The translations under genes were made by a program, and so were the position numbers. This document shows positions 40,773 to 57,905 of a stretch of DNA of 64,000 nucleotides, piece by piece. The stretch comes from Ectocarpus siliculosus (Eukaryota > Sar > Phaeophyceae > Ectocarpales > Ectocarpaceae): positions 502,068-566,067 of the forward strand of contig FN649747.1 of assembly GCA_000310025.1 (NCBI GenBank), in the 5' to 3' direction. Each line of letters opens with the position of its first letter. Positions within the stretch are counted from its first letter, which is position 1. The notes beneath the pieces were generated by a model, which saw only the letters and a list, made by a program, of their open reading frames with translations, was not told the DNA's origin and made no database searches.

Positions 40773-41891
40773 TGCAAGTTGCATGCACTATTGCTTATTG
40801 CATGCTGTAGCCGGGTGTATTGGACTTTTGGAAAACCCAAACAGCGCACATGAACAGCAACTCTAGCTGCGTGTTGGTTGATTTACTCTGCTGTATCGTT
40901 AACCCGTAGCATCCATATTACTCAAGACACCTCACACATGTGCCTCTCCTCAAAGTGGGCGTTGCTGTAACCACCAGAGAAAGAGGGTAGAGCAGGTAGA
41001 GTACCAAGCATGGGAGATCATGGAGTCTCATGGGAATTTGAAGAAGTTGGAGTAGCTCTAGTACAATGGCTGTCTGGGGCACTTTTTCACATGCAGAGAG
41101 TGGCAGCTTTCGCGTTATATTTTCTTGGGTGTCTGAGCCCTAAGTGTTCGGTGAGGTCCAAGCCACCGCGACGTGGAAATATGGCTTCCGAAACGAACAG
41201 CTTTCAAGCAGGGACTGCGGAGGGTATCCAAAGCGGGCATCCTAATACCGGGAGAGCATGATCCATTCGGAGCCAGCTGTTCTAGGGAAACCGTTCTCGT
41301 TGGCCGACATCTTTGCACAACATAACTGTATGAGCATACCCTCATATCATACCCTTCGCAACTGCAAATGAGCATCCCGGTGAGGGGAGATGCCTTGAAA
41401 CGAGGCCTACAAAAGTTCCTCAGCTTGGACAATGCCACGCATCTCTCAGCATCCGTTTCGAGTCTTGGAGGGTGCACCGATGGCTGATTTCCTGGATCAA
41501 TTGTTGTGCCGCGAGGAACCATATTCGGAGCCGCACTTTTGCTCCCTAGGCCACAGCAGAGTAGACTCTCTGAAACACTCGTCCATGCGTGTATCATGAG
41601 CGATTCAGCCGAACCTTCGCCGGGCTATATGCCATCATCTGCGGAGTTTGTATGATGAATGTCACGTCCAAACGAAAGCGGGCCACAGGGCAAGATATGT
41701 TAGCTAATCAGCACACGGATTAGAACCACAGGCCAACCTGGTAGGTGCGATCCATGGGTCCCATCCGAAAGGGGAAAGGACGCACAACAATGGATTGGTC
41801 TTCGTTTTTCCTCCGTCAGCCATGCCACAACATGTGCATCGGTCGAGCAGGACAGGTAGCCGCACCCCGATACAACGGCGTCCGCTGCGTG
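40773..41891. other. Convergent intergenic region
   Basis: This lies between the stop codons of the plus-strand ankyrin gene and the minus-strand IQ/SAM/ankyrin gene, so it holds two 3' untranslated regions. A 26-base motif around CATGCACTATT is imperfectly repeated at about 40,755-40,806 across the first stop codon. Open frames on the minus strand at 41115-41597 show no similarity I recognise. Confidence 0.45.
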
Positions 41892-44800
41892 TTACATATC
41901 CAGGCCCCGGTTCCAACCGTACACACTCGGAAGCACATACAGTTTCTCGGGTGCGGGCATTTGATGCCGGGATGCCCCGCCATACCGTGTCACTTGTGCT
42001 ACAAGAAACAAGCAAGGTACACGGTTTCAGCACTTACAGGGGGAAAGCCCTTGCTTGTTCTCGATTGTATCGTCCGCCCCATTATTGATGAGGTATTCTC
42101 CCATCTTCCCGCTAGAGTCGTACGACATGGCGAAGTGAAGCGACGTGTTTCCTGTGGCGTTGCGATGGTTCACGTCCGCCCCACGCTGAACCAAGAACTC
42201 GACGACAGGCATCTTTGACCATTCCCACCGACAACACATACGGCAGCGACGAGAGCATCAGTCAAAGCAACGTGGGCAGCATGTGGGGGTGAGATATATT
42301 CTGGAAGGAAAGCATCGCCACGTATCAAAACGCCGCACCAGAACCTCAACAACACCGACAGCAAACAAAGAAACGGATCTCGGGCGGAAGGTTGTAACTG
42401 GTGCCCAACCTCCTCGGGGTTAGGTTGGGACGTTGGGGATCGACCTTGGACGACATGTAGTCTACGTTGGCAGATTGGACCAACGCCGCAATCCGTGATG
42501 CGTGGCTAGCTGCATACGTCGGCGTACAGCCTGACCCTCGGGAGATTGTGGGGCCGTTGTGCACCAGATACAACCTGCCTTGGCCACCCGTGATGGCATG
42601 CCACTGCGCTCACAGCATCGGAGTGAGTGGACGAATTCTTCAGGCTCAACAACATATTGCTCGAACACACTACGCAACTCTAAGGTCTTCAGCCACAGCA
42701 CAGATACCTGTAGCTGCTGAACGGCAACGAGTAGAAGGGTGTTGCCCATAGAGTCTTCCGTGTTGATCTCGAAGCCCGAATTCAATGTCTCTTCCAGGCG
42801 CTTCTTCTTGCCATGTCTCGCCTGCGCGCCGAAGCGCACAAATCGCAAGCAGGAAGAGTTAGGATAAAAAATCGTTGCTATTGACAGATCGGTCACCCAC
42901 CATGCCGTGGCTGCCGGTAAGCGACACGTTTGAGGCAGGCTTATCTCTATGCGAAGGACGAACGTCTACGGTATGCAGTCTCGTACTCTCTCCCGACGTT
43001 CAAAGAGTGGCGAGAGGCTCGACAGTGCGCCATCGTTGTCGTTGATAAATTGCGTACCTGAGAGAAGGCGGTGTCCACGTCGGGAATCTCTTCCCTTATG
43101 GACGTCGCCTGGTCCTCTCGTCTGACGCTGCTCGCCATCGACTGTTCGGCCGCGGAAAGGGGGGTGAGCTTCTGCCGTGCTAGCAGGAGCTTCTTGAGGT
43201 GGAGTTTGTGCTCCATTCCGATCGAGTCCATGAGGTCTGACTCCCGTAGCTCGCCCAGGAAGCTTCCATCGACCTGGTTAGTTTAGTCAGTTACAATGGC
43301 AGTGTTTGACGAAGGAGGTATGAATGGGTGTTGAGGTTGCGTGTCCTTGCCAACATGGCGCAAAGGTGAAATGCACCCTTCCACTTTGCACCTGTGGTTC
43401 GACACAGTCAGTTCTAACAGCCCGCCCATGGGATACTTCGCCGGCCCTTTGAAGCTGGAAACGAGGGTTGACAGCACTCCAGTGCATCTTCTCCTCTTCC
43501 CCCAGCAGCGAAAGGTTCATACGCATGATCTTCTTGACTCTCACTTTTCCCTCCCGGAATGCCTGCTTGTACTCTCCGAGCTGTAATGTGTCCAGCCACC
43601 GGCACACGTCGTCCACGGTCCACAAGCACAACTCTGTCGGGAAAGGATGCCGTTGGCTGTTGTCCGCCTCCTCGATCTCCGCTCTTGTAGATTTCACCTT
43701 CTCCTTGCGCACCGCCAGCGCTTTCGTAACTGCCAGGAGGAATGCGTAGGTGGGATAGGGCGTGTGCGTGTGTGAGAGGATGAATAGGGAAAGCGGTCTA
43801 TCCGAGCGGCCATCGGAAATGAGCGGCCCTGTTCACTGCTCTGTGTCCCCGTTCCTTTGTCGCTTGTGATCATGCATATTCAAAGTGGAAAGACCTCCGT
43901 GTGACGCCATATTCCTTTCTTTTGGCTTTTTGTGAGGCTGAACCCGATTTTCTCTACACGTGCAGTCTCGAGAACTTGCTCTCACCGGCGTCGCCTCCTA
44001 GATCTCCAGTCTGCTTGAGTGAGGGGATGCTAGCAGCCGCTGCCGAGGCAGCCGCGGCCGCCGCGGCGTCCGCGCTGCCTGCGATAGCCGCCGTTGTAGT
44101 GTCCGCGTTGATGTCCCGCATCTAGTCGACGCCGAACGATGTCGATGGGAAACGAACAAAAAGGAAGAACAGAAAACATAAACCAGCAGTTGATAAAGTA
44201 GCAGCAACGATTGCTGGCGCTCTTGATGAAGGTGGTAGGCAACGACTGCGGGGCTATGGGGGAGGACGACCCCCACCAAATTGTAAGCACCTCGACAAAA
44301 GCAACTTCTGGTCAGATCTCTGAACGAATGATGCACTGAAAAACACAGATTGGCCTCCCATCTGTGTAGGAATTTAAACACAAGGCGCTCCAGCGGCTTC
44401 GCACTCTACAGATACATCCCCAACTTCAGCCTTTGGTAGCTACATTTTCAGCACAGGCGAGCGTTTCAGATGGAATAAATAAGCTCTTAGGTCGCACCTG
44501 CTTCATCATGTTGAGGCTACTAAAGTAGCTGAGTGACATGGACATGAACTGAAACTTCATCAGCTCCTCCGTCTGCCCGTACATAGCCGCCGCTTTGGCC
44601 TCGTGATCTCGGGCGCGTTGCGCGGTGGCGGCAGCCGCAGCAGCGCTGGTGGCAGCGGCCGTTTCTAGCTGGACCCCCTTCTCGCGAACGATGTCCAGCT
44701 CTCGCTTCTGCTCCGAAAGGAGCTCCATCAAGTTGCGCTGATGAGAAAGGAGGAGGAGGCGGAGGAGAGGGTGATAAGGTGCATTTGATACTATGTAGAT

Positions 44801-47800
44801 CTCGGCACGCAACGCTTGCATGCCACCCATCTCAGCTAGGCTCAAAGAACTTTCAAAAACTGGATTGGTGTAAGCGGTTGGAGCCTAAGGCGGCGACAGT
44901 ATTACACTGAAGTCCACTACTACGTTTTTCCAAACTGACCGCCCTGCCTACGTATCCCACAAGTCGGGTGACCTTTGCCCCTGTCGATCAAGCTTAGCTC
45001 CAAAACGAAATCCTCGTCCAATCGGAGACACCACAAAATCACCACAATCGATCGTGTACTGGGGAATACCTGCATGTGTCCAAACTCCCGTGACTTTCTT
45101 TGCCGCGTGGCCTCAATATCCGCCACGGCCGAACTTAGGCGATCCAGCTGCCGCTTCTTGTCGGAAACATCCGCAAAGGTCGACGCGAACTCAACGGATA
45201 GCTGCACGCGCCGCTGCTCCCGCTCCGCCCGCTTCAGCTGCAGCTGCATCTCCAAGGCGTACGCGTCCTCCTTCTTCAACTCCTTCTTCCCTCGCCCCTT
45301 CCTCCCTCCCCCTCTGCCACCACCGCTACCGCTACCGCTACCGAAGTCGTCGTCGTCGTCGTCGTCGTCGTCATCTCCATCGCCCCCCCCGCCGCCGCCG
45401 CCGTCCTTCGTACGCGGTCTCCCCGTTTTCGGGATGCCGGCAGCGCCCGTGATACCTCGCGATATCAGGTCTCGCTCGTGCGTCAGCTGCACGAGTTCTC
45501 TCTCGATATGGTCAATCTATAGAGAGAAGGGTGTGAAGGGCCGGAAGAGGAGAAGTGGTTTAAGCATGGCTCTCGATATGCAGAGAGACGGGTGCGGAGG
45601 GGGACGAAAGAGGAGGCCCGAGGGGTGTAGATGCAAGACCGGAACCAGGGCAAAGCGAGGGAAGTGCCTGTCCCCCATAGACACATCCAGTGTTGTCCTG
45701 CTAGTGAAATGGTGGATGATCTAATCTGTAGAGTGGCGATGTCCTGCCTTCTCGGGGGGAGCCGCTATTTCACAGTTTGGTGTGTTCGGAAGGATGCGCG
45801 TACGACGTGTGTCGTCGGTCGCAGACCCACCTGACCCAAAGTTTTGTCTCTTTCGGCTGAAGAGCTCCGATCCCCGTTCTCACAAAAATTCACTCCCACT
45901 TGTCCCTTCGAGGTTGACACATTTTCCTGCCCAATTACAACTGCAGCCAATTCAAACACCTTCCAGGACTAGTGTCGAGAAGCTCGGGGACTACCCCACG
46001 CACCTCCGCCATTTCCCTCTCTAGTACGCTTAGCTCCGACTCCGAGGCGGTGAGCTGATGGTGGATAGAGGACACGCGAGCTTCGGCTTTTTCTTGCGCC
46101 CGATTGAGAGCCGCAATCTCGCCTTGTTGTTTGACGAATGCCACCTGTTTTGCGATGTTGTCATGTTCTGCTTTATGTTCTGGTTTGAGCAACGGTCGCT
46201 GGATTGAAAAAAAACTATCGGAGAGTACGTCGTAGGCATGTGGACATGCGTAGAACGATGTTAGCCGCATAGCGAGCTGTGAGCCTGGAGACATGCAGAT
46301 CGTAAAAGCAGATCTCACCCACAAGTAATGAGTGTGGCAGTACCGCTTAGGTTTGCGTCATCGTTCCGAACAGGTATTTTGTGCTAGGATGATGCTAGGA
46401 CAGCATTAGCGGAGGCTCCATTGCTTTGCCGTCCCTGATAATGCCCCCGTGTTGATTTTCTCGATCGTGGGCGTATACACGAATGACTCCAGCGACGAAA
46501 ATATATTGAATTGGAACCAATTATAGAACTTCTTTCGGAAGAACAGTGGTGGGCCATTCCCGATACTCTGTGCACTAACTTCAGACTTCGGCAATCGGAT
46601 AGCACGACCATATTCTCGACCGTGCTCATAAAAAATCAGCATGTGACGACATTCTCGCCCGTGTTCGCAACAAAAACCGGCTTGAAGCATTCTGGGCAGA
46701 ATAGCTCATCTCCGAGGTCGATGGTCGCTCGTTGACGCCGCGTTTGAGCTTACTCTAACACTAAAACACAACCTTGCGGGGGGGCCTCCTTCACTTCAGC
46801 CGCACACACACGAATCGTACGAATCGCGCCCCACCTTAGTGTCTTCGATCATGCGCAAACCCAGCTTCAGGCGTTCTGCGCCGGGCCCCGCCGACTGCCA
46901 CTCCCGCCTCCGTCGGGTTGCCCGCCTCCCGAGGTGGCCGCGGTACATGCGCTGAATCTCGCGGCTAGCCAGCCAGGAGCACCGAGCCCGGAGGTAGCTG
47001 TCCCGCGCCATCTTCCCTCGCCAAGCCGACTGGAGCATGGTTGCTGACGATGCTCGGGCGGCAAACCGCGCCAGCAGCGCACGTTTGCGTGCCGCCACTC
47101 GTCTGGTGACACAGACGGGGTCGATGGTTAGAGTACACGGCATGACAAGGCGCAGGAGAACAGTGCATTGGTCGTGATGTCTCGCGGAAGTTTCACCGCC
47201 CGTCCGCGTTTCATGAACCCTCGTCCCCCGTTTTTGTGTTGTGCTGTTTTCTTCTGCGTACTGTCGTTGTCTCTACTTTTCGTGAGGGAAAGGGGCTGGA
47301 TGAGGCTCTGTGGCGGAGGACTGTTAAGTGGAATTCAGGTCTCTTGTACTTTGACCCCTACCGCAATCTCATCGTTCTCAAACAATCGAACTTGCCCAAA
47401 GCCATCTTGCATATGGGGCAATGATCTACCTGTTGCCGTTGACCTTCACTACCAACCCTAGAATATCAAGCACGCGTGACGGAAGCAAACGATACTATTA
47501 CTCGGCGGGAAAACGGGCCGTTAGGAAACCCTTCATCCGTCCCATTTTCACCTGCCAAGGAAACCGCGGGCCGCTTTTTGCAGCACCCGACACCGCACGT
47601 CCCTCAGCTTTTCGACGAACACCAACCGTCCGAGTCGGCCGCGGTACACTCTCTGTATCGTGGTAGCTCGACCCCCGAGGATGGTCTCGTCGAGAAGCTG
47701 CCGGCGTATGCGGCGTACCGATGTTCGCCTGAGGTGGCCCCTCACCAGCGACTGAATTGCCGTTGCAGCAGTGATCTAAGAATGAATTCCGTCCGTGGGA

Positions 47801-50595
47801 AGGTGGAAGGAAACGAACAACACGTGTCGTTTAGAATGTCGGGTGCTGCAGGCAAAAGTAGTGAGTGTCCGCACTCGAGAACGCGAGGCACGACATTCCC
47901 CTGAGAGTCACTGCGCCAGCTGTGAACTACGGTATGTCCATGGCAGTGCAGAGTAATCCATCCCGAAAACTATATCCGAGTATCCGAGTTGCATGGTGCT
48001 AGACAGGTTAACTATGATCGAGGATCACGCTGCGAGAATGGGAACGATCTATCCCACCCACTTAGAGCATCCAAATGAAGCGCACGTCGAATTCGGCGGG
48101 GGTATTGAAATCTTCACATCCCGATTTAAGAGCTTGTCTACTCGCAACTAATTCGAGGAAGTCAGGCCTTGCTAAAGGTTCGGTACGAAACCAGCAGTCG
48201 TAAGATTGTGTTTCATGCCACGGCAACGACTCCCACATCTCACGAGGGTGACATAATCGACAACGAACTGCTACCTAAGGTGAAGCCGTGAGTCTTAATT
48301 AGTTGCGAGCATCTACAGCATGTATCACCCTCAGAACTCACCTTCTCCTGACTCGTCGAAAGCGCGTACTTCAAACGCTCAACTCGCATCCTTGCGAGCC
48401 TCTGCCTGGCGAACATCTGCAGCCTCACGGCCATTGCAAGCATGGTCGCGGCCTTTTCCTCCGCCGTCTGCCCGTGCAGGATCTCCAAGCGCTCGATCTG
48501 CCTGACCTGCTGCCGCTGCTCCACCCTCTCGAACGCCTCCAAGGTCATCCCGCTGCCGCCGGCGGCCTTCGCCCGTGCTTCCAGCCGCTGCATCTCGTCG
48601 AGCACCTTGTCCGCCGGACGGTCGAGGCTGTTCTTTATTGACTCCGGGAGATTTTCCTGCTCGGTAAAGTGCTGTGGGCGCATGCCCCTCACGGGCATAG
48701 GCGTGGCCCCCGTCGTCTCCGCCGCCGCCGACCTTCTTGGTTCCACCGCCGGCACTTCGTCATTCTCGTGGAACTCGGCGCCGCGCTGCAGACGGCCGAG
48801 GTCGGCCTCACGCCGCAGCTCCGCGAGGCGCCGCTTCTCGGCCTCCAGAGTTAGCCTATCCTGCTCGGCGAGACCCTCGGCGCGGGCGGCGCGTTCTCTC
48901 CCGAATTTCGAAGCGCGCTCCTCGTTCAGTGCCTCGTTCTGTTCGCGCTCGGCTGCGAGGCATTTGGACTGCAGCTTGTCAACCTTGTCCGCGAGCTCGG
49001 CCTCCGCAACCGCTACCGCAAGCGGTTCCGGCAGTCGGCGGGGTCTCCCGTTGCTCGCGGCGGTGCTGTGTTCGGTTCCCTGCATCCAGTCTCCGACCGT
49101 TCGCTGCTCCGGAGTCGCGATGGGGTCCGGACATTCCATGGCTTGGGCGATTTGTGGTGCGGTGACTACCGCAGCGCCAGCGTTGGTTTTAGTGTCAGCA
49201 GTGATTTTGGTGGTCTCTGGTAGCGTAGTAGAAGCCGCTTTGCTCCTGCCGGACAGGGTAGGTTCTTGATCCTCAGCCGACGGTGGATCGATCGAACATA
49301 TCTCGACCCCGTTCTCGCTCATCGTCGTCCCTGGGTCGTCGCTTGTTGCTGCTTGTTCCTCTTGCGTCAAGGGAACACCCTTGGCGCCTGCTACGACTCC
49401 CCCGCCCCCTCCTTGGGAGGAAGTACGCACACCAGGTGTCGCAATACCCTGGGTATTCGGTAACGGCGGGGGCGGCCGCGATGGATCGGCTGGTAGCAAA
49501 CCTAGAGGGCCGTCGGTCGCGCTTGGCTCCCCGGTGTCAACCACTTCCTCCGGCATTCCGGCTTCTTCGCCTCTCCCTTCCGCCGCCGGAACATTGTTTC
49601 CAGAATTCACGCCGGGAGAACCCACTCTGGTGCTCTCGAGAGGGCTAGCGGCGAGTCTGGAACCCACGGGTTCTAGTGACTGCGTGTCTTGGAGACCTTG
49701 AGAAGCGATGATTCTTCCTTCACCCGTACCGGTCTCTTCGTTCCCAGGCGGAGGACAAGTGGACGCAGGGTAGTCCGGCGCGCGTCCGTGTTCCGTGCCA
49801 GGCGGTGTCGTCTCACCGACCTCGGAATCGCCAATCGCGTCCTGGTTCAATTTGAGCTCGACTTTGAAACCACCCACGTCGGCGTGGCCGGATTGCGGTG
49901 TTGTAGGTGGTTCACCGGCCTTCTGCGTGGTACAGGTCACCTGGGTTATCCCAGGGCTTGTTGCGCCGCCATCTCGGGTGGTAATGCTCGTATTTCCAGC
50001 TGGCATGTCCCTCCGATGTTCGTCCAATGCAGGCGGCGCCCGAGGGTCGTTACCTTTGGCGAGATCCACGGTCGCCCAAGACGTCGCTTCCCCGTCGAAC
50101 CAGCTGGTTGCCGCCGTCTCGTGGAGTGGAGAACCCATCGCCCGACCAGGTCCCTCCTGTAAACGGCTACCACGCTCCCCTGCTTCGGTGGTACTGTTCC
50201 TCCCTGGGGAAGCCAGCGAGGGCACCGGTAGTGTTGACCCAAGCCCCCTTCGTTTGTTGCGGTGATCGCGAAGGGCGTCGTCGAAGTCCGCGATGGCTTC
50301 ATCGAGCGTGAGGACCCCGCCACCGATGTTGTTGTCCTGGTGCAAGGGGTCGTCCCCATCGAAACCCTCCGACAATCCCGCGCGGGACGGCGATGGACCG
50401 GACCCCTGGCCCTCACGGCTATGGTATTGTAGACTCTCTGACGATCCCGATCGATGATCACGATCGTGATCGCGTTGCTTTCGGGAACGCTTTCCGGGTG
50501 AAGCAGGAGCGGTGAACGCTCGAGAGGACGGCCTTGTTCTCGACGAAGCTCGGTCCGCCGGCGATGTACCGCCTCGGATCAGTGGGCGGGTTCTC
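41892..50595 (-). CDS. IQ-motif / coiled-coil / SAM / ankyrin multidomain protein
   Basis: Exons read on the minus strand: 50595-48342, 47775-47552, 47102-46835, 46198-45960, 45864-45831, 45516-45070, 44737-44498, 44121-43986, 43729-43545, 43273-43058, 42821-42708, 42212-42038 and 41998-41892 (stop TAA). All junctions shown are phase-consistent. The long first exon shown encodes a Pro/Thr/Glu-rich region, a charged coiled coil and a first IQ-like motif. Five clear IQ motifs follow (AIQSLVRGHLRR, TIQRVYRGRLGR, VLQKAARGFLGR, MLQSAWRGKMAR, EIQRMYRGHLGR), which are typical calmodulin-binding sites. Then come coiled coils with a poly-Asp/poly-Gly hinge, a SAM domain split by an intron (LWTVDDVCRWLDTLQLGEY then VDGSFLGELRESDLM), and ankyrin repeats (GFEINTEDSMGNTLLLVA, VVEFLVQRGADVNHRNATGN). 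The start is unresolved: the frame is open to about 50,640 without an ATG, so a 5' exon is missing. Confidence 0.82.
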
Positions 50596-50927
50596 CTACC
50601 ACAACTCCTCGGGAACTTCGGGTATTGCGGTCAGGGGAGGGTGAGCGAACAACGGAAACGGTGGGACAAAGGTTCGGTGGGACAAAGGTTTCATTCTTGA
50701 CGAAATTGAAAATGGAAAACTGCGACGATCCCACACACGCTACCGAATCTAGGTGTGGTAAGAGCGTGGCTATCCACTTGAATAAATAGCAAACTAGCAC
50801 CTTGGAACAGTCGCAAAACCATGCAGCAAGAAGGCCACCTGCCGGCAACATCCCTAGATGACGTTGAAACGAGTCAACGGCGTCGCGAGTTGATTTCCCC
50901 ACCAACGAACGGGCTAGACTTCATCGG

Positions 50928-53900
50928 CTACAGTACCTCAGGGAGGGGTTCTCGCTCCTTGATCTTCCGCAGTGATGCGTAGCCGTATGCCGGCCCCGAC
51001 GTCCCGTCTCGTTCCACAGTGGCTGCCTCACCTTGGGCAACACCCACCACCCCTTCCATTACCGAGTTCGTATCCTCTCCTCCATCTCCTCCCCCTGCCC
51101 GTCCCTCTTTCCCCCCTCCTCCTTCGAGCAGGTTCGAGTCCTTCAATATCGTGACATCCATTGCAATCGTTCCAGTATCTATCATCTCGCCGCCGTTGCC
51201 CTCCTCCCTTGTCATCATGTTCTCTCCGCTGCTACCGCCGATGATATCTAACCCACCTTCTGGTGCCGCACCATCTACGAACGACCTTGTTCGTACCGCC
51301 GCCCCCGCCTTGACCCGTCCCTTCCCTTTGGCGGCGATGCCCATCCTACCCCCCGAAGGCCGTTTAGTCTGCGCACCTCGCCGGAAGAAGCTGGCCTCCT
51401 GCCCACCCGGAGCAGCAAGTAGATCCAGCACGTCCACGACGAGCCGCTTGCACTCTTGTCGCGTCTCGTGGCCACCCTTCACCCACGCTACGAAGGCGCC
51501 CTCGGCGCCGGCCGACAGCGACTCGAAAAGCGCCAGCTCGCCTCCTGGGCCTAGACAGGAAACGGCGTTTTCCCCGCGGTTCCCAGCGGCATTGCCGCCG
51601 TTGTTGACCGTGGGAGTGCCACCTAGACGAAGCTGATGCGACCAGACGTGGCGGGGACGGCGCCCCTCCAGGAAAGGGTCGACATTGGCCGCGTTAATGA
51701 GCACGTTGTCGGTCGACTGTGTGGTTTTGATGGGTTCGAGTTGGCGTTTTCGTTCGAAAAGCCCCCCGTTGACATGATGGGTTCATCCCGTCGTGGAGGA
51801 GACCATGTGGCAGTGGGGATGTCCGTGGTATTGGTCGTGGAGGCGGAGATGACGATCGTGTTGGTGTCGACAGCGGTGGTGGTGATGGCCGTGGTTTACG
51901 TTGCGGGTCGCGCGGAAAGTTGGCGCCAACCCCCGTCAGAGGGGATGCCACGCCAATCATCGGGAGTGGAATATAAGTGGTAGGTCAAGCAAAGAATTTT
52001 TCCGGGATTAACATTGGTGGTACTAAGGTAGATTCGGTTCCTCGTCTTGAGTCTGTCTATTGTGTTCCAGCCATGGAATCGAAACAAAACTCCAATATCC
52101 CCAAATCCAAATATATTTGCTGCTGTCTGTGCGGTGGATACCATGGTAGGCATGCATTTTATCAAAAACCAAAAACCAGTTGTCCTCAGCACAAAGTACG
52201 ACAAAAGATTTCACCTGGATGAGCACAAGAGGTAGCGCCATCGCCTTGAGATCTTTCGTCAGGTCGCGGCTTCTGAGAGCGCCCCTTACGATGCGGAGCA
52301 TGCCCTCGACGCCCAGCGGGTTCGCTACAGCGCACAGAATATTGAGGGCAAGATCTGACCCGATGGACTTCAGGTAGCCCTCGCTGAAAACAAACCTGAG
52401 TCAGATATTCGACACAGGCCACCAGTAGCTCAAAATCGGTGTGAAGGCGTTCGTGGAGGCAGAGGGTCACTATCACCTTGTGCATGTGAAGGTGTTTAAT
52501 ACGCTGGCGGCAACATTGTTCCTGGTTAGCCTAGGACCGACAACCTATGCTCCTAGGGCAATGCTCCCTCTTACATTTGTTTTGCACGTGACGCTATTTT
52601 TTTCTGACAGACCCACTCACCTGCTCCAAAAGGAGATTGGAAGATCGGGTCTTTCGGGAGGGAAGCACTCAAATGCTCTTTGCGCAGAGTGCAACACCGC
52701 CGCAAGCTGTGCGTCCACAGTCGCGAAGCCGTTGACGCACGCAAGGGACCTCAGAGTTGGTTTCCATTTGTTCTTGGAGGCATGGTGACAGGCGAAGGCG
52801 GCCGCGATGCTGGCGCCGTTTCCGATCCCCAGCAGGTGGAAAGGCCGGTCCGATAGTGGCATCTCGCCCATGTTGTCCACGTGCTGAGTAGAGGTGGTTT
52901 CGTATAGGGAAGAAGATCAACGGACAGCTTTGAAGTACGAATCGACCAAAGCTCGCTCACTCAGTTGGACGTCAAAAACTGCCGACGGTGTTTTATTGCG
53001 TAGCCGTAAATTGTCCAGGAAAGGAGAGGGAAATACGAGCGTGTCCATACCGGCCTAGTTTTACAACGTTTGACGCTCACATTGCAGCTATTCGATGCAA
53101 GACAGACAGCAGTGTTTCGATAGAGGCACGCCTCATAGGTGCAGGTGCTCTAGTTCGTCCCCCTTCTCTATCCCACTTCGACCAGTAAGGTCTACAGTTG
53201 CTATGCATACCTGCATCAGCTCGTCCAGCCTATCCGCAACCCAGACATTGGTAAGCAAGCCTTCAGGCTCGGGCGGAAGGTGAGTTCCAGCCTGGCCCGG
53301 TGAGTTGAAGCACAGCACTTGACACCCCGGATACTTAAGAACGAGCGGCTTGAAAAGCAGAAATGTCTTCTCCAGGGTATCAAAAAAGTCGTGAACCACC
53401 ACGAAACTTAACACCCCCCCGTTCTCCTTGCCCGCCTCTTGGCCGGGCCCCCAGTCTTTCTCGCCGCCGTCGCCGCCGTTTTGCTCCCCCCACCCCCCTT
53501 CAGTGCCCCCCAACTCTGGCGCCGACAACAAGGGCGCTCCAGTTCCAACGACGGCGTACGGCATGAGCGTAGCTCCATCCGCACACAAAAACTCGGATCT
53601 TTCGAAACCGGCCGGGTCAGGCGCCGCTGCCGTGGCGTTCGCGAGCCTCTCACCCACCCGGTCCTGGCGGCGTTTTGCCGCCGCTCGGCCCGCCCTCGTG
53701 GTCTGCCCTCTCCCTCCCCCCACGCCCGAACCCGACGCTGGCTGGCGCGAACTTCCGTTCCTGTCCACCGCAGCAGCCGTGCTTTTGTTCCCGGTGTTGC
53801 GCAAGCCCGAACCCGGGGCAGTTCCTGCGCGGCTTGGTGACCCAATCACTGTCGTTGCGGCGGAACCACACCCCGACCCCACTCCGACTGGAATCCAGGC

Positions 53901-56900
53901 TTGCGGTGGCAGTGCCGGCTGCGGAAGGCGTCGGGGGTTGAAGCCTACAGTAGTGTTTGGCCTTGCCTCGCCACTAACGCCACCCACGAGGTGGCCTTTC
54001 GAGCACTGGTGCTTACTAATCGAAGAAGTACTGACAGCTGCAGCAGCGGTGGCGGTGGTGGCGAGGGTACCCGAAGCGGGAAACGGGTACACAGTTGGGC
54101 CAAGCGCAACCGTAACCCGTGACGGCGTAGTAGAACTCGTCCAAGGGCGGGTGCTAGCGACGTCACCATCAGTCTTGCCGTTCGGCGAAGGAAGTCGATC
54201 TCGTGCGAGAAACAGCGGCGTGCTGTTGGGTTGTGCTTGGGCCACCGAGGAGGCCGAGGGGAATGGGGGTATCGAAGAAGGCAAGCTATGCTTCTGTTGG
54301 TGGCGGCCCCCCTTGCTCATGTTGTCTTCCAGTCCCGGTCCTTGCGTAAGCGTGCTGCTACGCGAGTGACCTCTGCCCGTGCGCCATCTATGAGCTTCCT
54401 GCTCGCGTGAGATCGGTGTGTTCTGCATGATGTATGATGTTTGCGGCGGCGTGTTCTAGTGTGCGGACGGACGGTGGGTTGAAACGCTACCCACGTCCTT
54501 CGAAGCACAGGAATGAATGGGACAAACTCCGCGCTCACAAACACGTGTAGGATTGTGTATCACGAAGAAAGCTTGCCCTTACCGCAGAAAACTCATACAC
54601 GCCCCCCTTTCCCTTAACTGCTAGTGGACACACGTGTCACTCACCAGGACTCCAAGAACCCAGGCACATATCTTTGACGCCGGGAGCGACACGCACGCAA
54701 CGATTTCCGGTCGGAATGCCGGGTTCCTGGTGTAAGTCTCCAACTTCCTTGTCTGGGAAACCCTAAGGGTGCTTAGGTTCAGTCCAGAAATCGCTGCGAA
54801 AAGCTTGTCAACGTTGATCATGTACCGTCTCGCGGACAGCCAACCTGCGGCAGTGGGTTCTCCTTGTCCGGTTAGTGCGATCATCAACGCGGCCGTCACC
54901 ATGTTAACCGCCGCCGGGGGCTTGGCGAACGACCGGAGCTCGCAGATATCTCCCCGGGTGAGTCCGTCAATGGCGGCCTGGGCGCGCATTAGAGCACGGC
55001 TTTCTCCGGACACCGATGTTTCGTTCTGTCGCTCCCACTCTTCTTCCTCTATCCTCTTTCCAAGATAAGCACCCTGAGCAGTGGAGGAGATCTGGGTGTT
55101 GTCAGGCGGCTGAGAGACGCCCCAACTTGAGCTGCCACCGCGAATCTGGGCATCCGCCGCTTGTTCTCGAGACGCGTTACTCTGGACACGACTCACCCAC
55201 TCTTCCCGCCGCGTTCCGGCCCCACTTCGTGCTCTTTTCGGGGCTCGCTGATGCTGTCCTCGGATGCCATTGCTACCATGTACACCCAGGTCTGCTGATA
55301 ACCCTGTCCCCATTTCCTCTGCGGCTGCCGCCGCCTGCGCATCGAGCCGCTTCACGGACTTTGTTCTGGCCTCGTCTACCATGCTATAGACACGGTAGCA
55401 ATTGCCGCAGACCCGAACGGGCCTGTAGTAGGTGGCCGGGAATACTGCGCCGAGCGACACCGAGCTCTCGCCGAGGCCGGAGAGATGGTCCACGAAGGGC
55501 TCCTTGTTCCCCCTGCGGTATCGACGCAGCTGTGGCAAAGGAGCAACACCATGGGGCAATGCTTGATGAATAAGACGGCACTTTGGCGCTACTAGCTATT
55601 GATAAGCCCGAATTTGGTATTGGTCTACGAGTGTGAAAGGACAAACGCTGAAACGGGAGTACAAATGCCGATGAAGAGACGCATGGTCGGCCGAATTTCA
55701 CACCGATGAGAGCACAAATGGCATCAATAATCGCACCTGCTGATCAATCAGGTGACTCTCTTGCCTCCCCCGAACTATCCAAGAAAACGGGATCTCGTTC
55801 CACTCCGCCTGCGCCTCTTTTCCTTTGTCGACTGCCGAATCCCATCGTCGGGAAAGCCTCCCACCGCCGCCGCCTCGTCGAGAAGTGCCATCGATCCCTG
55901 TCCCCTTTCTAGCGGTGTCTGTCATTCCCCTGCCCTTGCGTGGCGATCGCTGCTCCGTGACGTGACTCCCTTTGACCAGCCCACCGTCAGCTGGCAGCAC
56001 GCCGTGGTCTTGCAGAGCAGCCTCGTCGAGCTTGAGGATTTTCGTTCGAAACGCGCTCGTGCCGGCGCTGCCATTGGGATTTTCACTTGTCCTTCCCGAA
56101 GACGGATGGGGGTGGAGAGGAGCGGCGAGGTTGAGTGATCCGTTTCCGGTTTCCTCTCGCTCAAACCTTGCTTGCTGCTGAATCTGAGCGAAACGTATGT
56201 TCGATTGGGGGCAAATGTGCGGGACGATGTTAGGGGCGGTACGGACAGAGGGGTACGGTGATGCCAATTTCTCGTAGTAGAACATGGGTTTTGCTCCCCC
56301 GCCGTTTGGTGTACGTTAAGGCCGGTAAGCCTGGAAGATCAGTTGTACTCTAGGCTCCAGGGCACCGCTGTTTACTTCGATCAGCCTAGTACTATTCTCG
56401 AGAATGTGAATACGCCACGAGCCCACTGTGCGAACCTCCCTTACCTTATCCAGCAAGTCTGTGTCGCAGAAGTCCCCATGACACATGCGAGCGAGCTGGC
56501 TACTCCCAAGCGCTCGTCCGGCTGCCGCGGTACGCCCAATCTCTCTCGGATCATGCTCCCCTGGTGCAGCAAAGCCATGAAATGTCACCCCAATATCACG
56601 GACAGCCCCGGCTCCACCATCCGTCCGGTTTCCCCTAGCCTGAACTGTGCTGAAAGTGGAAGCCACCTCCGCCCTGCTACATTCCGTCGACACAGTTTGT
56701 GGCCTCCTCGCGCCACGCACTGTGCTAGAGGGTGATTCGGTTTTGAACCCCCACTCTTCGGCATCAAGCGTCCCTTGGCTGCCGCCAGCTTCGGCCGGTG
56801 ACATGGCAGTTTGTGCTCGTCGATGCGATTCTGCCCTCGGTTCCCTCCGATCCTCTCGACCTGAGGGGCTTGTTGTCAACATATTGAGTTCAGAAGGGGG

Positions 56901-57905
56901 GCAAGGTGCACTTTCCCCGATGGCATGCCCGTATCGTAGCAGGGACAGCTCATCGGCAATGTCTTGGGCGGACTGGAGCCGTGCGGTTTTGGACTGAGAC
57001 GGGGATGGGCTTCGGCGCTGCCGGCTGTACGGAGGCACGGATTTGGTCGTGACACACTCCGAGGAGCGCACAAGCCGCAAGTTGCCGAAGACGTCCTCAA
57101 CTACTTCCAGCACGAGCCGGAGCACGCGAGCCCCACTAAAAGCCTCTACCCACAGTAAAACTTGGTTGCACAAGCGTCCCAGCTTCTTGTTAAGGGTAGA
57201 GGATTTGCATGGTATGCGTTTGGGAACTCCCTTGAGTTGCACCAGGCGGTATGACCGATGCACGGACTTACCCGCACAGGGCTCGAGAACGAATGTGTGC
57301 TGAATGCTGAGCAGTGGCTCTACGCAAGGAGCTTTTGGGGGTATGAGGACAACCAGAGCAACCGTACCCGTGGGAGGGGTGCCCTGGGCCTTGCGGATCT
57401 TCCCCAAGTCGACTGTCTTGACGGGGATAGCTTCTCCGGCTGACGTGAAGGCCACAGCTCCGTTCACCCCGACGCCGCCTTCCGCACCGGAAGAATTAGC
57501 ATCGGCCAGGGCACCAACATACTTCTTCGAAGGTCGAAGGTGCGCCATGGCTTTGGCAAATGTGATGCATCCCTCGTCCTCTGCGATAGCTCTGGACACG
57601 ACGCGCCCCGCGCTGGTGTAGTAGAGCGCCTCGGGGGATCCATCATAGTAGATAATGGTCTCGAGGATATCCACAGGGCACCCTGTTCCTTGGCCAAACC
57701 GACGGTGAGCGAGGCCCTGCAATACCCAAGGCCAATCGCGTGGCATCCCCTCCTCCCCTGCGAATGCCATGAGCTGCGTGGTCCGGGTGATATGTCGAAC
57801 ATGCTTCTCGGCATCGTGGCCATGGTCAACCTCATCTGGACGTAGCGGTGACGTAGAACGCTCTCGTTCTCGAAGGGGGCTCCTACTTCTGTGGTCATGC
57901 ACCAT
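50928..57905 (-). CDS. Fusion protein: CxxC segment, dynein-stalk-like segment and alpha/beta-hydrolase
   Basis: Seven exons join in phase on the minus strand: 57905-56376, 56183-55737, 55529-54645, 54398-53211, 52883-52621, 52383-52215 and 51716-50928, giving 1,756 aa from ATG 57905. The N-terminal part (about residues 20-330) is a novel folded region ending ARVLRLVLEVVEDVFGNLRL, followed by a disordered Ser/Arg-rich stretch. At about residue 700 is a VCGNCYRVYSMVDEAR segment with a CxxC pair. Residues about 853-954 resemble the dynein heavy-chain stalk, with ICELRSFAKPPAAV and a closing SKICAWVLGVL. The last 450 residues are an NDR-like alpha/beta-hydrolase: VVHDFFDTLEKTF, the elbow GIGNGA with Asn where Ser is usual, FWSSEGYL, an LVLIQSTDNVL strand and WVKGGHE with a candidate His. 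If an intron were absent, an in-frame TAA at 56316-56318 would end the protein at 529 aa. It may be flagellar; this is inferred from the dynein-like part. Confidence 0.72.

Follow-up and report, generated by a model that had tools for sequence, protein, structure and literature searches.

The window, that is the whole 64,000-nucleotide stretch of Ectocarpus siliculosus DNA that was analysed, carries on its minus strand a gene of 19 coding exons (41625..57905) for a protein of 3,226 aa, according to a model built by hand and guided by paralogs. Along this modelled protein the modules are shown to follow one another in the order N-terminal domain, CxxC segment, dynein microtubule-binding domain (MTBD), alpha/beta-hydrolase fold, IQ motifs, coiled coils, SAM domain and ankyrin repeats. 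The window gene is labelled C22 and its paralogs are named by contig (C27, C17 and C15).

Gene model and 3' end

On the minus strand, exons 1-7 lie at 57905-56445, 56183-55737, 55529-54645, 54398-53211, 52883-52621, 52383-52215 and 51716-50937, exons 8-13 at 50615-48342, 47775-47552, 47102-46835, 46198-46004, 45516-45070 and 44737-44498, and exons 14-19 at 44121-43986, 43729-43545, 43273-43058, 42821-42708, 42212-42038 and 41638-41625. All modelled introns are GT-AG and the single stop stands at the end of the 19-exon frame. The exon junctions and the start codon are inferred from the DNA sequence, exons 8-19 having been placed by hand after the paralogs, and the weakest point of the model is the acceptor of exon 8 (50615), for which there are eight open in-phase candidates.

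A sequence-only reading of this DNA had described seven minus-strand exons in phase from 57905, and these stand, stop-free and with GT-AG introns. Its product of 1,756 aa comes to 1,733 aa when counted to the stop that it chose, and its 3' end at 50928 is replaced, with a splice donor directly before the TAG and 12 further exons modelled to 41625. A GT donor (dinucleotide 50936-50935, GAG/GTACTG) begins six bases ahead of this TAG (50930-50928); in the present model this arrangement (50928..50936, minus strand) makes the TAG intronic, with the gene continuing to 41625. It could be argued instead that the gene stops at 50928 and that the IQ, SAM and ankyrin modules belong to a separate gene downstream, given that the frame closes at the TAG no more than nine bases past the proposed donor and that the exon 8 acceptor is poorly defined. 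However, this is very improbable: in C27 a single exon (locus L012, 6501-9390) runs from the C-terminal part of the hydrolase into the IQ motifs, which argues against a gene end at 50928, and a like tail is present on the same strand in both C27 and C17, these tails having been recognised by alignment and reading frames, with Pfam run on the window tail only.

That two neighbouring genes are present, the first ending after the MTBD at the in-frame TAG 54621 and the second, with the hydrolase, beginning from about 54428, is barely credible: translation past the exon 3 donor halts seven codons on, and 30 bases ahead of exon 4 there is an ATG in frame, yet the C27 equivalent (GVFQANRWLTGSGHSR) runs uninterrupted in a 768-codon open frame with the CxxC, the MTBD and the N-part of the hydrolase. 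The paralogs are the ground for rejecting both this split and a gene that ends at 50928. Given that C27 has the same layout in an uninterrupted exon, the fusion appears to be real and the proposed junctions 54645/54398 and 53211/52883 are supported, the same sequence lying within one exon of that paralog. The single fused gene first claimed is therefore retained, with a modelled protein about twice the claimed length, in which the IQ, coiled-coil, SAM and ankyrin modules lie beyond the earlier stop.

Within exon 12 there is a Gly-rich and Asp-rich low-complexity run (45290-45405, minus strand). Long plus-strand open frames at 48352-49269 and 53395-54369 are antisense to GC-rich exons and are probably a by-product of composition. 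The scan for bacterial promoters and terminators is without meaning for this gene.

Domain order and paralogs

The N-terminal domain (57036..57734; this and all following features of the window gene are on the minus strand) is of unknown family, has no Pfam match and ends in 'RVLRLVLEVVEDVFGNLRLV'; in a PDB search the N-terminal 710 aa found no solved chain at E <= 10. The CxxC segment of the earlier reading is confirmed as VCGNC at aa 676 (55398..55412, within 'YYRPVRVCGNCYRVYSMVDEAR'), and a CxxC is found in all four aligned genes, C22, C27, C17 and C15. There follow the MTBD (54645..55031), the hydrolase-fold domain in four exons (51405..53594) and tandem IQ calmodulin-binding motifs (46874..48461; PF00612, E 4e-10), of which five match a strict and six a loose pattern. 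A conserved segment, 'LMKFQFMSMSLSYFSSLNMMKQMRD' (44113..44563), is near identical in C27 and similar in C17. The C-terminal tail, for which the PDB search matched ankyrin and SAM chains, consists of a SAM domain in two exons (43178..43622; PF00536, SAM_1, E 1.9e-15) and ankyrin repeats (42039..42821; PF12796, Ank_2, E 3.5e-9), after which the protein ends in LSPYDGI and the stop.

Over all 19 exons there was no Pfam match to the AAA motor ring, linker or dynein tail families, and NCBIfam gave no match on the four exons tested. HyaE in exon 8 (E 0.009-0.011, under the Pfam cut-off) and OSTMP1 in exon 3 (Pfam E 0.24) were taken as chance. AlphaFold2 yielded no usable model, with a mean pLDDT of 39 for the MTBD alone and 31 for the N-terminal domain.

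The C27 paralog, from the same genome (loci L012 and L014), has a domain order like that of the window gene, and a single exon (L012 3286-5433) holds the GDFC motif, the CxxC, the MTBD (PF12777, E 7.3e-9) and the first part of the hydrolase. Identity between the window and C27 is 39% in the CxxC segment, 32.5% in the MTBD and about 48.5% in the hydrolase, the MTBD being less conserved than the CxxC segment, the hydrolase and the IQ region and more conserved than the N-domain; the two MTBDs align with a score of 135, and 1,000 shuffles reached at most 51. In the coiled-coil/SAM stretch, identity to the window copy is 63% for C27 and 41% for C17. A long run of N, either an assembly gap or withheld sequence, begins at about base 6400 of L014, downstream of the C27 paralog, whose last ankyrin exons lie beyond reading.

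The third copy, on C17 (L013, L015 and L016, with L013 at C17:3435500-3444500, minus strand), shares with the window gene the motif C-x-GD-[FY]-C, the CxxC, the hydrolase, the IQ motifs, the coiled coil, the SAM domain and an ankyrin-like tail. Between CxxC and hydrolase, however, in the slot occupied by the MTBD in the window gene, C17 has a response-regulator receiver domain (Pfam E 2.2e-13), and PF12777 has no match on contig C17. The receiver domain has a Glu at the presumed phosphoacceptor position (VVERDTPVMDG). The gene on C15 (L017, C15:2679000-2688500, minus strand) has the VCGNC segment and a possible N-terminal domain of the window kind, and no hydrolase was noticed within the stretch read. 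The N-parts of the window gene, C27, C17 and C15 align at 19-24% identity; given that genome searches with the window or the C17 N-part recovered neither from the other, the equivalence of these N-domains is weak and follows mainly from their position.

The dynein MTBD and the hydrolase fold

A dynein stalk-like segment had been proposed from the sequence, and rather than there being no HMM match, exon 3 alone matches PF12777 (dynein stalk/MTBD) strongly (E 2.4e-19), the match covering positions 76-206 of the 344 in the model. The closest solved chains are DNAH9 (E 1.1e-15) and DNAH17 (E 2e-13); at E <= 1 the PDB search matched 63 distinct sequences, and the best 60 of the 63, examined by name, are labelled as dyneins or bear labels like 'AAA+ ATPase domain-containing protein', 'MKIAA0325 protein' and 'Radial spoke head protein 9 homolog'. 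The likeness to a dynein MTBD with short stalk stubs is, by these comparisons, far beyond chance. The stalk hallmarks ELRSFAK..ICAWV are present as described, with a span of 95 residues and not about 102. The claim of a dynein stalk without its motor holds as regards the motor, no AAA match being found; the stalk is reduced to short coiled-coil stubs, the long antiparallel coiled coil around the MTBD being absent from the PF12777 match. The genome searched (189 Mb, 492 contigs) yields 34 matches to PF12777 at the level of exons (E <= 0.01), the window gene and C27 included.

In dynein the helices H1, H3 and H6 contact tubulin, mainly via positive residues (PMC7042235), and H1 shifts with the register of the stalk and thereby sets the affinity (PMC6629372); the long stalk that does so is missing from the window protein. 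In a seven-row MTBD alignment of the window copy, C27 and five dyneins, a basic residue is present in H1 in all seven rows and in H3, four residues after the Trp, in six, the exception being the true dynein 8glv_JG. The landmarks ELRS, PP, Trp and C.WV are retained, so that landmarks and H1/H3 basic residues are common to the window copy and the axonemal dyneins DNAH9 and DNAH17. In H6 a Lys or Arg occurs within the three positions that precede the conserved Ser in all five dyneins; the window copy reads ACVS, with no Lys or Arg at these positions and a Lys five residues past the Ser, and C27 has one Arg there and a Cys in place of the Ser. An axonemal dynein has an AAA ring, a long stalk and a basic H6, and the window MTBD has none of the three and sits inside a scaffold. 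With basic residues retained in H1 and H3 but lost from H6 in the window copy, the fold looks to have been kept and the grip changed, and microtubule binding may be weak or absent.

The MTBDs of C22 and C27 form a group (support 93/87) in a tree of 15 MTBD rows, of which several are incomplete and were joined by hand. Of the 12 inner branches two are starred and eight open, so that the tree does not single out a donor dynein, and the C27 MTBD is flagged as a long branch (end branch 1.92). By pairwise score DNAH9 and DNAH17 come closest to the C22 MTBD, closer than any of the nine dynein rows that its own genome contributes, and the C27 MTBD is closest to C22, then to 8glv_JG, and among solved chains to Chlamydomonas dynein-c (2rr7). 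Given this nearness of C27 to dynein-c and the open branches of the tree, it is the window copy only that points to a source of the DNAH9/17 type.

A distinct possibility, although held with less than even confidence, is that the MTBD has decayed into a relic that makes protein-protein contacts, for dimerisation or the holding of a partner, with no microtubule binding, and that the receiver domain of C17 is a parallel partner module. The loss of H6 basic residues from the window copy, the strong divergence of the C27 MTBD and the presence of the receiver in the same slot of C17 are all in keeping with such a relic. Against it, the landmarks and the H1 and H3 basic residues have been retained, and the domain is still recognised by PF12777 at the E-value given above. 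The reading preferred here is that the MTBD serves as a docking module.

The hydrolase domain had been described as NDR-like. A generic alpha/beta fold is the likelier identity by HMM, and the Ndr identity is rejected, PF03096 matching none of the three copies (window, C27 and C17) at E <= 5; the one match to it found genome-wide at E <= 0.01 lies on C475. Abhydrolase_1 (PF00561) matches all three copies at E <= 5 (best 2e-5), the window copy weakly (E 0.011-0.014; 15.5-15.9 bits against a curated Pfam cut-off of 25.8), and Abhydrolase_6 (PF12697) matches one of the three (E 1.6e-6). Identity between the window and C17 hydrolases is 39%. No clear solved relative was found in the PDB, either with the window hydrolase (best E 0.4, an isoaspartyl peptidase) or with the hydrolase profile (best ABHD6, E 0.043).

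The nucleophile elbow, located by alignment to that of ABHD6 chain 7ots, reads GIGNG in the window copy (52815..52829) and in C27 and GFGSG in C17, with Gly at the nucleophile position, in place of Ser, in all three copies; none has a Ser, Cys or Asp nucleophile there. In the three-copy profile the elbow Gly stands opposite an Ala of 7ots, which presumably replaces the catalytic Ser of ABHD6. Beside the chloroperoxidase row the presumed acid position is N, D and N. The window domain has in common with generic alpha/beta hydrolases (PF00561, PF12697, ABHD6) a weak HMM match to the fold, the elbow position and a GHE motif, and is unlike them in the Gly at the nucleophile position and in its fusion to an MTBD and to IQ, SAM and ankyrin modules. 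The domain is likely a pseudo-enzyme; NDR proteins are also hydrolase folds without catalytic residues. That the hydrolase is active by an unusual mechanism, and as the main function is aimed by the other modules, is improbable: the GHE motif is kept in three of three copies, but so is the Gly at the nucleophile position, and the acid position, on the assignment assumed above, is not consistently acidic.

Proposed function, origin and flagellar context

It is suggested, at about even confidence, that the window protein is a scaffold that binds calmodulin and probably belongs to the flagellar apparatus, an MTBD captured from an axonemal dynein being its docking module. This docking scaffold is argued for by the MTBD match and its axonemal relatives, the C27 paralog, the grouping of C22 with C27 in the tree, the IQ, SAM and ankyrin modules, the Gly elbow and the retention of basic residues in H1 and H3. 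Against it stand the changes in H6, the lower conservation of the MTBD between the paralogs and the missing long stalk. A single capture of the MTBD from an axonemal dynein heavy chain, perhaps one like DNAH9/17, would have preceded the C22/C27 duplication, and the domain would act as a non-motile dock on microtubules, in all likelihood flagellar ones. Calmodulin binding by the IQ motifs would render the scaffold Ca2+-responsive, the SAM domain and ankyrin repeats would serve in multimerisation or partner binding, and the hydrolase fold, as a pseudo-enzyme, would have a structural or ligand-binding role. It is conceivable, if rather unlikely, that the genes form a non-catalytic flagellar scaffold family in which a slot between the CxxC and pseudo-hydrolase modules holds either a once-captured MTBD or a receiver, and that the Ca2+/calmodulin-regulated scaffold occupies, or competes for, the site of dynein on the doublet microtubule.

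A true dynein piece on C16 is nearest to axonemal chains (8glv_JG, 2rr7 and DNAH1), which suggests that the host is a flagellate. An open frame on C14 (L018, C14:1825500-1829000) encodes a PAS domain with GRNCRFLQGP, which we take to be a LOV signature; a second, equal PAS match lies 4 kb on, at C14:1832470, and the frame upstream of the first is RGS-like by eye, with no Pfam match. Helmchrome is a putative photosensor of the posterior flagellum of brown algae (PMC5795050), and the C14 frame is possibly helmchrome-like, a lead only, given that the RGS-like frame has no Pfam match. PF12777 and IQ domains are depleted in downy mildews without zoospores, as reported in PMC6264045; this fits a flagellar role in general, likely reflects dyneins, kinesins and others, and is silent on the window gene. 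Flagellar genes are reported to be expressed in male tissue and gametes of brown algae (PMC3652789 and PMC12629598), and PMC12629598 has a 'turquoise' expression module that is enriched in flagellar genes.

Among the papers listed by searches of open-access full text, none was found to describe a dynein MTBD that lacks its motor and is joined to modules of this kind; the domains are known, and it is their combination for which no description was found. Relatives may stand under automatic names in eukaryotic protein databases or in subscription papers. The hydrolase alignment found no confirmed relative among viral contigs, nor did the coiled-coil/SAM alignment among viral and prokaryote genome contigs, a result that says nothing on other eukaryotes.

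The dynein MTBD is treated as a part of the motor. A motorless MTBD kept through gene duplication would show its reuse as a free docking module, and would provide a natural test of the residues that a domain requires to bind microtubules if there is no stalk to set its affinity. If the scaffold is flagellar, it would be a large Ca2+-responsive component added to the axoneme or basal apparatus of this lineage.
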